Positions 33,475 to 40,231 of a DNA stretch of 64,000 nucleotides are shown one piece after another. This stretch comes from Pseudoflavonifractor sp. MSJ-37 (GTDB taxonomy: Bacteria > Bacillota > Clostridia > Oscillospirales > Oscillospiraceae): assembly GCF_018917965.1 (NCBI RefSeq), contig NZ_JAHLPP010000005.1, positions 124,001 to 188,000 on the forward strand, written 5' to 3'. How positions within the stretch are numbered: the stretch's first letter is position 1; each line of letters opens with the position of its first letter. The notes under the pieces are model-generated. The model was not told where the DNA came from. It ran no database searches and saw only the letters and a program-made list of their open reading frames with translations. A program made the translations under genes and the position numbers.

Positions 33475-34183
<709 letters not shown>

Positions 34184-34197
<14 letters not shown>

Positions 34198-34879
34198 TGC
34201 TCTGGAGCCTCCTTTCCATGTGCGCGAAGAGGATCGCGAGGACCTTGGTGATGCAGAAATACATCACCGCGATGATGAACAGGGGCCCCGCGGCGTCATA
34301 GGTCTTGCTCTGGATGGAAGAGTAGACCTTGGTCAGGTCCACCATGGCGATGTAGCCCACCACGGCGGTCTCCTTCACCAGCACGATGAATTCGCTGGTA
34401 TAGGTGGGCAGGCAGTTCTTCAGCGCCTGGGGGAAGATGATGTGCCACATGGTCTGGGCCTGGTTCAGGCCCAAGCTCCGGCCGGCCTCGGTCTGGCCCT
34501 TGTCCACGGCGTTGATGCCAGAGCGGTAGATCTCCGCCATATAGGCCGAGGAGTTCAGACCGAAGGCCAGGATCGCCACGATCATCTTGTTGTCCGTCAC
34601 ATGGAGCAGGATCACGTTGTACATGATCAGGAGCTGGACCACCATGGGGATGCCCCGGATGATGTCGATGTAGACCGCCGCGGGGACGTGCAGGATCTTC
34701 CGCTTGGACAGCTTCATCAGGCAGAGCACCATGCCGAACACAGTGCTGATGATGATGGCGCCCAGAGTGATGCTGATCGTGACGCCCAGGCCGTCCAGAT
34801 AGAACTTCCAGCGGTCCTCGTACAGGAACGCCTTGAAGAGCTTGTCCCCGAACGACGCGAACCAGTTCAGGATATCCAT
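34184..34879 (-). CDS. Polar amino-acid ABC transporter, permease
   Basis: A 231-aa membrane protein of the HisM/GlnP family with about five transmembrane helices (first: [20 protein letters not shown]). The EAA loop that docks to the ATPase is [20 protein letters not shown] followed by [37 protein letters not shown] is the usual second block. It lies 112 nt after the binding-protein gene, with a hairpin between them. One permease gene only, so it should work as a homodimer. Confidence 0.92.
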
Positions 34880-34931: not shown

Positions 34932-34961
34932 AGCCTGCGCCGTTCTGATACGGCGCAGGCT
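34932..34961. repeat. Intergenic hairpin between binding protein and permease genes
   Basis: A 12-bp perfect stem (AGCCTGCGCCGT/ACGGCGCAGGCT) with a 6-nt loop. On the minus transcript it is not followed by U residues, so it more likely protects the upstream binding-protein mRNA or attenuates than terminates. Such hairpins often raise the binding protein level above its membrane partners. Confidence 0.55.
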
Positions 34962-34991: not shown

Positions 34992-35849
34992 TTACTGCTT
35001 GGCCACGATGATGGACTGGACCGCCTCATAGTAGCCGTCCGTGAAGTTGGCGTTCTCCTCGCGCTCCTCGGTGCGGGTCATGCCGGCGGCGATGAAGTCG
35101 ATGCGGCCGGACTGCAGGGCGGGGATCAGGGCGTCGAAGTCCATGTTCTCGATGGTGACCTCATAGCCCAGCTCGGCGCACAGATACTTCACGAAGTCCA
35201 CGTCGAAGCCGGTGGGCTCGCCGTTCTCGTCCAGATACTCGAAGGGCTCGAACTCGCAGTTGGTGCCCATGGTCAGGGTGCCCTTGGGATCGGTGACGGC
35301 GGGCAGCTCGGGCAGCTCCACGTCCTCTTCCTTGGAGATGTACTTGGACACCAGCGCGTCGAAGGTGCCGTTCTCCTTCAGGGTCGCCATGGCGGAGTCG
35401 AACTCCTTGGCCAGAGCGGCGCCGGCGTCGTTCTTCTGGGTGGCGATGGCGTAGGTCTCGCTCTCCTCGCTGGCGGGGAAGTCCAGCAGCTCCAGCTTGT
35501 CCGGGTTGGCGGCCACCAGAGCCTTGGCGGGATTGGTGTCGATGATGATGCAGTCCACGCGGCCGTTCATCAGCTCCATGCCGCACTGGGTGGCGGCCTT
35601 GAAGGCGCTGACCTCGGCGCCGGAGATGGTGTCGGCCACGTCGTTGCCGGTGGTACCCTCCTGGACGGCGATCTTCTTGCCCTCCAGGTCGGCTACGGAG
35701 GTCCAGGCGCCGGCGGCGGTGGTCTCCGCAGGGGCGGAGGCGGCGGGCGCGGAGGCGGCGGGGGTGGAAGAGCTGCTGCTGGAGCCGCAGCCGGCCAGCA
35801 GGCTCACAGAGAGCGCGGCGGCCATGCCAAGAGCGATGAACTTCTTCAT
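34992..35849 (-). CDS. Amino-acid ABC transporter binding lipoprotein with circularly permuted domain
   Basis: 285 aa from ATG 35849. Signal peptide and lipobox LLAGC (Cys21), then a Ser/Ala/Pro/Thr linker to ~48. The rest contains all parts of a SBP_bac_3 amino-acid binding protein, in swapped order. Residues 51-171 correspond to the normal second half (SVADLEGKKIAVQEGTTGND ... IIIDTNPAKALVA ... ATLKENGTFDALVSKYI). After a linker (172-189), residues 190-284 correspond to the normal first half (TLTMGTNCEFEPFEYLDENG, PTGFDVDFVKYLCAELGYEV, MDFDALIPALQSGRIDFIAA, GMTRTEEREENANFTDGYYE). Ligand residues Arg263 (alpha-carboxylate) and Asp104 (alpha-amino) are present. First gene of its operon. Confidence 0.9.
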   Translation of the reverse strand: MKKFIALGMAAALSVSLLAGCGSSSSSSTPAASAPAASAPAETTAAGAWTSVADLEGKKIAVQEGTTGNDVADTISGAEVSAFKAATQCGMELMNGRVDCIIIDTNPAKALVAANPDKLELLDFPASEESETYAIATQKNDAGAALAKEFDSAMATLKENGTFDALVSKYISKEEDVELPELPAVTDPKGTLTMGTNCEFEPFEYLDENGEPTGFDVDFVKYLCAELGYEVTIENMDFDALIPALQSGRIDFIAAGMTRTEEREENANFTDGYYEAVQSIIVAKQ

Positions 35850-36101: not shown

Positions 36102-37820
36102 TTAGCCCTTGGTCACGTTGGTGAACAGGAAGAAGCCCAGAGGGGTGTAGTACATCCCGCTGAGGCCCTCGGCCATCATGTAGGGCTGGGTGTAGTAGTA
36201 CAGGGGCGCGATGGCGCTGTCCTGGCTCAGGAGCAGATCCTCGCACTTATGCATCAGCTCCATGCGGTCCTCGGCATCGGAGTCGTTCAGGACCTTCGTC
36301 ATCATGGCGTCATACTCACTGTTGGAGTACTGGGCATTGTTGTTGCCGTTGCCGGTCATGAACATATCCATGAAGGACACGGGATCGTTGTAGTCGCAGA
36401 TCCAGCCGTCCCGGGCCATGTCATAGTTGCCGTCGGTACGGGTGCTCAGGAACACGTTCCAGTCCTGGTTGTTCAGGGTCACATCCACGTTCAGGACATC
36501 CTTCCACATGGACTGGAGGGCCTCCGCGATAGCGCTGTGCTTGTCATCGGTATTGTAGAGGTAGATCACCGCGGGGAAGCCGGCGCCGTCGGGATAGCCG
36601 GCCTCAGCCAGGAGCTGGCGGGCCTTCTCGCAGTTGGCCTCATACTGGTCGGGATCCACGCTCCAGTAGTCACCGCCGGTGGTGCGGAAATCGTCGCCGT
36701 CGGCGCCCGCCGCGTCATACACGCCGTCGGGCACCCAGCCGCTGGCGGGCACTTCGCCCAGCTGAGTCACCTGCTCGGTGATGTAGTTGCGGTCGATGGC
36801 CAGGTTGAAGGCCTCGCGGACCTTCTCGTTGTCGAAGGGCGCCTTGGCGTTGTTGAAGTCCACATAGTAGGTGCCCAGGTACTCGCCGGCGATCAGGGTG
36901 CCGTTGGCCAGAAGGGCGGCCATCTCGTCCACCGGCGCGTTGTTGATGAAGTCCAGCTCGCCGTTGTTGAAGGCGGTCAGCATGGCGCGGGTGTCGTCCA
37001 TCAGCTTGAAGGTCAGCTTGCTGAGGGTCACGGAGCCGGCGTCATAGTACTGGTCGTTGGGGACCATCACGATCTCGGCGTTGTGGGTCCAGGACTCCAG
37101 CTTCATGGGGCCGTTGCAGAGGTAAGAGGCGGGGTCCTGCGCCCAGTTGCTGTTGGCGCTGACCACGTCCTCCCGGAGGGGCATGGTGCAGGGGAACGCG
37201 CAGATCTCCTTGAAGTAGGGGCAGTTGTAGGTCAGGTCCACCACAAAGGTATGCTCATCGGGGGCGGAGACGCCCAGCTCAGACGCGTCCTTATTGCCCT
37301 CGCGCACGTCCACGGCGTTGACCACCATGTCGATGATGTAGTTGTAGGGCGCGGCCAGGTCGGGAGAGACCAGGCGCTGCCAGGCGTACACGAAGTCGTT
37401 GGCGGTGACGCTCTCACCGTCGGACCACTTGGCGTCGTCCCGCAGGGTGAAGGTCCAGGTGTAGGTGCCGTCGGCGTTCTCGGTGATCTCGGGCTCCTCC
37501 TTGGCCATGCCCAGGCCCAGGACGGCGGTGGGACCGCCCTCGCCGTCGCCGGCGCCGTCGGAGCTGTCCACCCACTTGTACAGGTTCTCGAACAGGTGGT
37601 GGGCCATGATGCCGCCGTCCACGGTGCGGTTCAGCGCGGGGTCCATGGTCTCGGGCTCGCTGGCCACGCTGACGCTCAGGGCCAGGCCCTCTGCAGAAAC
37701 GCTGCCGCTGGCCGCGGGAGCGGGGTCCTTGGAGCCGGTGTTCCCGCCGCAGCCGGCCAGCAGGCCGGCGGTCATGGCGGCAGTCATGCCCAGCGCCAGA
37801 AGTCTCGTCGTCTGTTTCAT
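36102..37820 (-). CDS. Oligopeptide-binding lipoprotein (OppA/SBP_bac_5)
   Basis: A 572-aa extracellular binding protein for an oligopeptide ABC transporter. Signal peptide with lipobox LLAGC at about residues 20-24. Family motifs: SVASEPETMDPALNRTVDGG, TYTWTFTLRDDAKWSDGESV then TANDFVYAWQRLVSPDLAAP, CNGPMKLESWTHNAEIVMVP, KAPFDNEKVREAFNLAIDRN and DGWICDYNDPVSFMDMFMTG. Of usual length. It has its own promoter and terminator and lies just after oppF, so it can be made in excess over the permease. Confidence 0.92.
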   Translation of the reverse strand: MKQTTRLLALGMTAAMTAGLLAGCGGNTGSKDPAPAASGSVSAEGLALSVSVASEPETMDPALNRTVDGGIMAHHLFENLYKWVDSSDGAGDGEGGPTAVLGLGMAKEEPEITENADGTYTWTFTLRDDAKWSDGESVTANDFVYAWQRLVSPDLAAPYNYIIDMVVNAVDVREGNKDASELGVSAPDEHTFVVDLTYNCPYFKEICAFPCTMPLREDVVSANSNWAQDPASYLCNGPMKLESWTHNAEIVMVPNDQYYDAGSVTLSKLTFKLMDDTRAMLTAFNNGELDFINNAPVDEMAALLANGTLIAGEYLGTYYVDFNNAKAPFDNEKVREAFNLAIDRNYITEQVTQLGEVPASGWVPDGVYDAAGADGDDFRTTGGDYWSVDPDQYEANCEKARQLLAEAGYPDGAGFPAVIYLYNTDDKHSAIAEALQSMWKDVLNVDVTLNNQDWNVFLSTRTDGNYDMARDGWICDYNDPVSFMDMFMTGNGNNNAQYSNSEYDAMMTKVLNDSDAEDRMELMHKCEDLLLSQDSAIAPLYYYTQPYMMAEGLSGMYYTPLGFFLFTNVTKG

Positions 37821-37850
37821 TTACGAAAGCCTCCTAGGTAAATCTTGTCA

Positions 37851-37891
37851 TTTTTCCTGTGGAGCAGGAAAAAGAACGGCGGCCGCCGTTC
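37851..37891 (-). promoter_or_regulatory. Two hairpins in the leader of the peptide-binding protein gene
   Basis: TTTTTCCTG/CAGGAAAAA (37851-37873) and the palindrome GAACGGCGGCCGCCGTTC (37874-37891) lie between the promoter and the ribosome site. They may stabilise the mRNA. Confidence 0.45.
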
Positions 37892-37905
37892 ACGCTTGCC
37901 GGACT

Positions 37906-37934
37906 ATCATACCATTTTGACGGATACTTGTAAA
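37906..37934 (-). promoter_or_regulatory. Sigma-A promoter of the peptide-binding protein gene
   Basis: On the minus strand: TTTACA, 17 nt, TATGAT, starting about 85 nt before the ATG at 37820. Confidence 0.78.
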
Positions 37935-37968
37935 GTGAATATTACGATCCTGTTAAGTGCAGTCCGTA

Positions 37969-38004
37969 GAAAAAAGCGCAGAAATCACCGATTTCTGCGC
38001 TTTT
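37969..38004 (-). terminator. Terminator of the oppBCDF operon
   Basis: A 15-bp stem AAAAGCGCAGAAATC/GATTTCTGCGCTTTT with ACC loop and further U residues on the minus transcript. It follows oppF by ~145 nt; the stretch 38005-38148 has no gene I can support. Confidence 0.85.
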
Positions 38005-38148
38005 ATCCTTTTATGCGATGATAAGTAGAAGCAGTCTGTCTTTTGGACCCGTTCTGGTCCACATCCGTGCACAGCGTCCATGTCTATTTCACGGGGACGT
38101 CCTACATCCAAAAGAACGGGGCATCGAGGCCGCCGTCCGTTCCCACCA

Positions 38149-39183
38149 TCACTTGTTCAGCAGATGGCACGCCGCCCAATGGCCCGGCTCCACCTCTCGG
38201 AACGCGGGGGCCTCCCGGCCGCAGAGCTCAGTGGCATAGGGACAGCGGGTATGGAACCGGCACCCGTGGGGGGGATCCATGGGGGAGGGGATGTCGCCCT
38301 CCAGCACGATCCGCTGACGGCGGCGGCTCACCTCCGGGTCGGGGACCGGCACGGCGGAGAGCAGTGTCTTGGTATAGGGATGCAGAGGGTGCCGGTTCAG
38401 CTCATAGCTCTCGGCCAGCTCCACCAGCGAGCCCAGATACATGACGCCGATCCGGTCGGAGATATGCCGCACCACGGACAGGTCGTGGGCGATGAAGAGA
38501 TAGGTCAGGCCCAGCTCCTCCTGCATATCCTCCAGCATGTTCACCACCTGGGACTGGATGGACACGTCCAGAGCGGAGATCGGCTCGTCGCAGACGATGA
38601 ACTCCGGCTTCACGGCCAGAGCGCGGGCGATGCCCACCCGCTGCTGCTGTCCGCCGGAGAACTCGTGGGGATAGCGGTTGGCGTGCTCGGTGTTCAGGCC
38701 CACCATGGCCAGCAGTTCCCGGATGCGGTCGGCCCGCTCGGCCTTGGAGCCGTACAGCTTATGGATGTCCAGCGCCTCGCCGATGATCTCGCCCACGGTC
38801 ATGCGGGGATCCAGAGAGGCGGAGGGATCCTGGAAGATGATCTGCATCTTCCGGCGGTAGGGGAGCATATCCACGCTCTTGGGCTTGGGGACCCGGCGCT
38901 TGGTCATATGGCCGTCCCCGTCCCTCTGCCAGGGGTCCTCGCCCTCGAAGATGGTGGTCCCGTCATAGACGATCTTGCCGGAGGTGGGCTCGTGGAGCCG
39001 CAGGATGGTGCGTCCCAAGGTGGTCTTGCCGCAGCCGGACTCGCCCACCAAGCCCAGGGTCTCTCCCTTGCGGATGAAGAGAGAGACGCCCTCCACCGCC
39101 TGCACGCCGGGGCCCTTGACGCCCTTGACGGGGAAATATTTCTTCAGGTCCTTGACCTCCAGAAGGATCTTGTCCTCAGCCAT
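38149..39183 (-). CDS. oppF: Oligopeptide ABC transporter ATP-binding protein OppF
   Basis: 344 aa from ATG 39183, overlapping oppD by 8 nt. Walker [30 protein letters not shown] (typical of the OppF/DppF branch), signature [17 protein letters not shown], Walker [21 protein letters not shown] and H-loop [10 protein letters not shown]. The C-terminus has a [15 protein letters not shown] cluster with four cysteines, which in Opp/Dpp ATPases binds an Fe-S cluster. An insert between residues ~75 and 95 ([18 protein letters not shown]) is longer than in most OppF. Confidence 0.92.
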
Positions 39184-40231
39184 GGATGCCGTCCTCCTCT
39201 CGCTTCTGTCCGATCTGGTCCTCCACCCGGAGCCAGCAGGCAGCCCGGTGGCCGTCGCCCAGCTCCACATAGGGCGGCATCCTCTTCAGGCAGATCTTCA
39301 TGCACTTCTCGCACCGGGGGGCGAAGGGACAGCCCTCCGGGGGATCCAGCATATCCACCGGCGTGCCCTCGATGGGGATGAGCCGCTCGTAGCTCTCGGC
39401 ATCCACACGGGGCATGGAGCGCAGGAGGCCCATGGTGTAGGGGTGGCCGGGGCGGTAGAAGATATCGTCCACAGGGCCCTGCTCCACGATCCGCCCCGCG
39501 TACATGACCGACACCTTGTCGCAGATCTCGGCCACCACGCCCAGATTGTGGGTGATGAAGATGATGCCCATGCGGGTCTTTTTCTGCAGATCCTTCATGA
39601 GCTCCAGGATCTGGGCCTGGATGGTCACGTCCAGAGCGGTGGTGGGCTCATCGGCGATCAGCAGCTTGGGATGGCAGATGAGGCCCATGGCGATCATCAC
39701 CCGCTGGCGCATACCGCCGGAGAACTCATGGGGATACTGCTTCATGCGCTTGCGCACGTTGTTGATGCCCACCAGCTCCAGCATCTCCATGGCCCGCTTG
39801 GCGGCGGCCTCCCGGGAGATGGACTTGTCGTGGGCCTTCAGGGCCTCGATGAGCTGGTCGCCCACGGTGTACACCGGGTTGAGGCAGGTCATGGGGTTCT
39901 GGAAGATCATGGCCACCTCACTGCCTCGGAACTGGGTCATCTCCTCCTCGGAGAAGGCGAGCACGTCCCGGCCCTCGAAGGTGATGGAGCCGCCCACCAC
40001 CTTTCCGGGGGACTGGAGCAGGCCCATGATGGAGTAGGCCTCCTGGCTCTTGCCGGAGCCGGACTCGCCCACGATGCCCATGACCTCGCCGTGGTCCAGG
40101 TCGTAGCTGATGCCGCCCACGGCCTTGACCTCGCCGGCGGGCGTGAAGAAGGAGACCCGCAGGTCCTTCACCTCCAGCAGCTTGCCCCCGGGCGCGCTCT
40201 GGACGGTCTTTCCTGTCATATTCCGATCCAT
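39176..40231 (-). CDS. oppD: Oligopeptide ABC transporter ATP-binding protein OppD
   Basis: A 351-aa ATPase partner of OppF. Walker [30 protein letters not shown] (OppD branch), signature [20 protein letters not shown], Walker [21 protein letters not shown] and H-loop [13 protein letters not shown]-terminal cysteine cluster ([14 protein letters not shown]) matches the Fe-S-binding tail of Dpp/Opp ATPases. RBS GGGAGGAGGAACG. Confidence 0.92.

Follow-up and report, generated by a model that had tools for sequence, protein, structure and literature searches.

Circular permutation of whole binding proteins has mostly been examined in engineered molecules, or has been viewed as an ancient, one-off event between distant families. 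A 2008 report described the glycine-betaine-binding proteins of the OpuAC type as circularly permuted relative to other type II binding proteins (PMC2395249). TpMglB-2 of Treponema pallidum, designated 'Type Ic', is a tethered binding lipoprotein that, though naturally permuted, has kept the ability to bind its ligand, and its authors posed the question of whether anchoring drove the permutation (PMC4990184). Permuted versions of the family-3 protein GltI with linkers of 3–24 residues bind glutamate with equal or higher affinity (PMC11162441).

We identified a gene for a permuted amino-acid-binding lipoprotein at positions 34992..35849 (minus strand) of the window, the whole 64,000-nucleotide stretch of DNA that was analysed; the host is a gut bacterium. 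The protein is homologous over the whole domain to SBP_bac_3 or PAAT-type proteins such as GlnBP, TmArgBP, AncQR and ArtJ, has the same ligand residues, and is likewise encoded with a permease and a GlnQ-like ATPase. It differs from them in its block order, B-C-A instead of A-B-C, and in a predicted lipid anchor on lobe 2. TpMglB-2 has a type I sugar-binding fold in which the permutation creates a fourth lobe crossing, whereas the window protein keeps its two crossings. The engineered iGluSnFR/GltI permutants (PMC11162441) also belong to family 3 and also have their old termini joined by a linker; unlike the window protein they are man-made and carry a fluorescent protein. Tandem domains of the GlnPQ type (6h30) contain the same C-to-A junction, but between two complete domains where the window protein has one. 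The preliminary description, made from the sequence, knew of no described family with this topology. That statement was too broad, as OpuAC-type proteins (PMC2395249) and TpMglB-2 (PMC4990184) are permuted binding proteins; permuted binding proteins are thus already known, and it is for permutation inside family 3 that we found no report in open-licence papers.

Gene layout and block order

For this analysis we defined three blocks, such that canonical family-3 proteins read A-B-C. The 285-residue product, assigned from profiles, alignments and a structural model, begins with a lipoprotein signal peptide (residues 1–20) and the lipobox cysteine Cys21 in the motif LLAGC (35787..35849, by sequence reading and motif position); all features given here lie on the minus strand. 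A Ser/Ala/Pro-rich linker (35706..35786), modelled with low confidence, leads from the lipid anchor to block B (residues 49–117; 35499..35705), which forms the first half of what remains of lobe 2 beyond its first strand and includes the codon for Asp104 (35538–35540). Block C (residues 118–172; 35334..35498) completes lobe 2 with its second half and then takes the chain through hinge crossing 2 back into lobe 1. There a new internal linker (residues 173–188; 35286..35333) connects what were ancestrally the C terminus and the N terminus. Block A (residues 189–284; 34998..35285) follows; it opens with the N-terminal portion of lobe 1, runs on through hinge strand 1 and ends with the strand that comes first in lobe 2, and it includes the codon for Arg263 at 35061–35063. 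Hinge strand 1 (YYEAV, residues 273–277; 35019..35033) corresponds to GlnBP 85–89 according to the alignment, the published domain limits (PMC7400645) and the strands of the model.

Profile searches identify the next two genes as an amino-acid ABC permease (34184..34879; PF00528, HEQRo_perm_3TM) and an ABC ATPase (33475..34197), for which GlnQ is the best profile. Between the binding-protein and permease genes is a perfect 10-bp inverted repeat (34933–34960; GCCTGCGCCG ... CGGCGCAGGC) that is not accompanied by a T run and may determine how much of each product is made relative to the other. An RNA regulator beside the operon was sought in an Rfam scan of the whole window, which returned one tRNA and nothing else. 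Judged by reading, the upstream genes at 36102–40231 on the minus strand resemble a peptide importer, with two putative Opp/Dpp-like ATPases and a lipoprotein that resembles an oligopeptide-binding protein.

The product scores 122.3 bits against PF00497 (SBP_bac_3; E = 1.5e-35), above the curated cut-off of 26.4. Domain order is no part of that cut-off, and here the usual succession of lobe 1, lobe 2 and lobe 1 is replaced by B-C-A; we therefore call the protein a permuted variant of PF00497. HMMER divides it into two pieces whose profile order is reversed. Residues 190–285 of the searched frame match positions 23–118 of the TIGR01096 profile, and in a phmmer comparison with TmArgBP (6svf), where the residue numbering includes one extra residue ahead of Met1, residues 190–285 correspond to chain positions 9–104 and residues 54–173 to 114–228. 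When the protein is re-ordered in silico, it gives a single collinear match to AncQR (9–231) and to E. coli GlnBP (5–221), and the AncQR score rises from 142.8 bits in native order to 157.5 bits. Because the re-ordered protein matches as one stretch, each block must be present once, with none missing or doubled. A pair of half-domains drawn from separate full-length copies was rejected on these same grounds. The exchange of halves and the retention of every SBP_bac_3 part, both proposed in the preliminary description, are borne out by these matches.

The scores against the lysine/arginine/ornithine profile TIGR01096 (159.8 bits native, 172.7 bits re-ordered) lie below its cut-off of 256.35 bits. 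A polar amino acid is the probable substrate, and family profiles do not single one out. The profiles and structures matched are those of family 3 (type II), not of the type I fold of TpMglB-2, and the OpuAC Pfam profile PF04069 is absent among the families matching the protein at E up to 1. No solved permuted family-3 protein occurs among the 60 best PDB sequence matches, in which the only chain spanning most of the C-to-A junction is the tandem protein 6h30.

Predicted fold, ligand residues and position of the cut

The AlphaFold2 input consisted of the window protein together with its permuted relatives and with fragments of canonical relatives left unaltered. The model has a pLDDT of about 91–98 from residue 51 to the end. 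Residues 46–174 superpose on positions 98–224 of an engineered GlnBP at 1.9 Å, residues 187–279 on domain 1 of TmArgBP (6–98), and residues 188–277 on domain A of LAO (2–92) at 1.3 Å. The two-lobed PF00497 fold is thus predicted for the window protein, with a confidently modelled mature part and each half superposing where expected on a canonical protein, which is the outcome of the prediction and superposition proposed earlier as a check. The best full-length structural match in order is OpuAC (2b4l), with 209 residues, Z 12.3 and an rmsd of 5.0, a result to be read with the knowledge that pseudo-symmetric lobe matches also reach 155–180 residues. OpuAC shares 13% identity with the window protein, falls in another Pfam family and binds a different ligand class; its permutation looks separate from the one described here and far older.

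In GlnBP, Arg75 and Asp157 contact the amino-acid backbone of the ligand (PMC7400645). The corresponding residues are present as Arg263 (TEER, 260–263) and Asp104 (IIIDT, 101–105), at the positions first assigned to them. Asp104 is found in all 32 B-C-A rows of the alignment and Arg263 in 18 of the 32, the losses falling in the L018-type and orphan lineages and none in the window's own. The window protein would be expected to bind its ligand.

The small domain of GlnBP spans residues 90–180 and its hinge residues 85–89 and 181–185 (PMC7400645). Its segment GYYKSG aligns with GYYEAV (272–277) of the window protein, in which YYEAV is followed by eight lobe 2 residues, with a model strand at 278–283, before the protein ends. 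The preliminary description had the cut where the hinge strand begins. By this alignment it falls within lobe 2, directly behind hinge strand 1, and both lobe-to-lobe crossings therefore stay covalent. With the cut in this position, a linker of about 27 residues would lead from the lipid anchor into lobe 2. From the known domain limits, the anchor would hold lobe 2 and not lobe 1.

The ancestral termini, both on lobe 1, would have been tied by the linker of about 16 residues, and new termini opened in lobe 2 just past its first strand. With the hinge crossings and ligand site retained, the Venus-flytrap cycle should equal that of GlnBP or TmArgBP: the ligand would be held between the lobes, the lobes would close and the ligand would be delivered to the permease, as with an ordinary amino-acid-binding protein. 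The one clear mechanical change would be in the tethered lobe, from lobe 1 to lobe 2. That joined termini are tolerated by this fold is indicated by the permuted GltI sensors, which keep or raise their affinity (PMC11162441).

Distribution and number of origins

Orthologues of the window protein with the B-C-A order were found in Pseudoflavonifractor (80, 77 and 75% identity) and Galloscillospira (57%). In all four (L013–L016) the operon is kept, with permease and ATPase genes behind the binding-protein gene. Between the window gene and the three closest orthologues (L013–L015), dN is approximately 0.09–0.13 and dS approximately 0.2–0.6 in blocks A, B and C, and the signal peptide and linkers change faster than the blocks; the low dS probably reflects strongly biased codon use. 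These comparisons support purifying selection on the blocks. The earlier view of a live operon free of decay is strengthened by the intact permease and ATPase genes, by this selection and by the orthologues of the same block order, for which a search had been advised.

Block HMMs were applied to loci from genome searches, with duplicates removed before counting. Single-domain permuted proteins comprise 48 with the order B-C-A, 32 with C-A-B (and one more with an insert) and three cut inside B. A further five permuted domains are parts of long frames, in at least four cases joined to a permease, and tandem arrays also occur. At least 50 of the 295 sampled genomes of the host's order yield a single-domain match across the C-to-A junction (E up to 1e-34). 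Forty of these were read and all 40 were permuted; by this count, a single-domain family-3 protein of permuted order appears to be present in at least 50 of the 295 genomes. The span of a match was not taken by itself as a sign of permutation because three cases (G662, locus L173; G514, L082; G762, L169) were misleading: permuted-looking by span, they proved canonical or tandem on reading. A permease gene or domain follows the permuted gene in each of the 29 best loci, and permuted genes mostly have permease and ATPase genes next downstream. The survey, conducted within the phylum, also found permuted members at lower frequency in its other classes. On plasmids there was no sign of permuted members, each of the 15 best tblastn places matching in two pieces, a weak test. 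What had seemed a lone case accordingly recurs, and with no fewer than three cut points.

Several other arrangements also occur. L166:333–3770 (1146 amino acids), L167 and L168 encode one-frame importers in which two permuted domains (B-C-A-B-C-A) are joined to permease and ATPase domains, L167 and L168 extending past the analysed sequence. In L069, L144 and L147 (B-C-A) and L178 (C-A-B) the permuted binding domain is directly fused to a permease. At L174:1988–3770 two adjoining permuted genes, C-A-B and then B-C-A, precede one permease and ATPase.

A tree was made from 81 proteins with their blocks set in canonical order, and four block-order states were mapped on it. The four states need 12 changes, counted regardless of direction, a count of events that is not a rate because the sample was drawn with permuted queries. 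Eight of these changes involve B-C-A, at least four of them forced by well-supported branches; three involve C-A-B, all three forced; and one is the cut inside B. B-C-A never forms a single clade in the bootstrap trees. The AU test rejected a tree in which the window and L018-type groups share a single origin (p = 2e-48) and did not reject one in which the window group shares its origin with L042–L045 (p = 0.095). On this phylogeny, permutation arose several separate times, with different cut points, in Clostridia.

Routes of origin and competing explanations

We consider it very probable that the window gene encodes a circularly permuted, working binding lipoprotein of a polar amino-acid ABC importer, of a kind that has arisen through repeated duplication and trimming in Clostridia. 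Block order, completeness, conservation, operon, several origins and a scar in one sister lineage are established at the level of sequence. In the proposed route, a family-3 gene would double in tandem and in frame, after which the outer A and the outer B-C would be lost to leave a permuted single domain. The L018-type lineage carries a C-to-A linker, for example YGVQEALVEQ-AASEFTAAE-SDSDVAYIQDKG, whose start resembles the C-terminal tail (YGVQAAIIEQ) of the canonical sisters L029, L030 and L032 and whose end resembles their pre-A leader (DSDLTYVQDKG). Both the A and the B+C halves of this lineage point to the same sisters. By these alignments the linker is a duplication scar, as expected of tandem in-frame duplication with trimming. 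The clear scar is confined to the L018-type lineage, the linker of the window lineage being too diverged for any scar, and we infer the same route for the window lineage. A canonical tandem A-B-C-A-B-C lipoprotein at L136:3596–5179 is a living example of the proposed intermediate.

A chimera, in which halves from two different family-3 genes were fused in permuted order, could account for one feature of the window lineage: its best canonical match by block A (L083, L084) is not its best by B+C (L080, L082, L017). Yet identities in A and B+C correlate over the canonical rows (rho 0.52 for the window protein and 0.66 for L041), either half leads to the same sisters in the L018, L044 and L066 lineages, and the L018-lineage scar fits duplication of one gene, all of which make a chimera unlikely. 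Slightly more improbable is a protein that works solely through domain swapping, as a dimer in which lobe 1 of a chain is completed by block A of its partner. TmArgBP, a close solved relative, is reported to dimerize through loose domain swapping; however, the C-to-A linker of 16–20 residues is long against the 3–24 residues that work in permuted GltI (PMC11162441), and AlphaFold2 predicts the single chain with high confidence. An assembly error, or a decaying gene of two half-domains, has a negligible probability and was rejected: the B-C-A order is common to isolates and metagenome-assembled genomes of several genera, with intact reading frames and operons and purifying selection.

Within the preferred reading of a working permuted lipoprotein, the permutation might itself have been selected, not neutral, if the moved tether alters opening, closing or permease docking. 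We hold this only tentatively and think it rather doubtful. Selection on the tether would explain why the three recurrent cut points (B-C-A, C-A-B and inside B) are all located in lobe 2 and leave the two hinge strands uncut, but this preference is suggestive only, because the search model would give low scores to cuts inside block A.

Canonical proteins, three cut points, a canonical tandem, a scar and permease fusions occur side by side in one family and one order, so that the route by duplication and trimming can be traced almost stepwise. Natural experiments of this kind could show whether the choice of tethered lobe affects lipid-anchored importers, and the proteins themselves are natural scaffolds on which amino-acid sensors could be built. 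They also illustrate how annotation from profile names conceals domain order. One fast-evolving B-C-A lineage (L048, L106–L110, L129 and L133) mostly occurs away from adjoining permease or ATPase genes and lacks the Arg263 equivalent; its members are perhaps sensors or partners of distant transporters.
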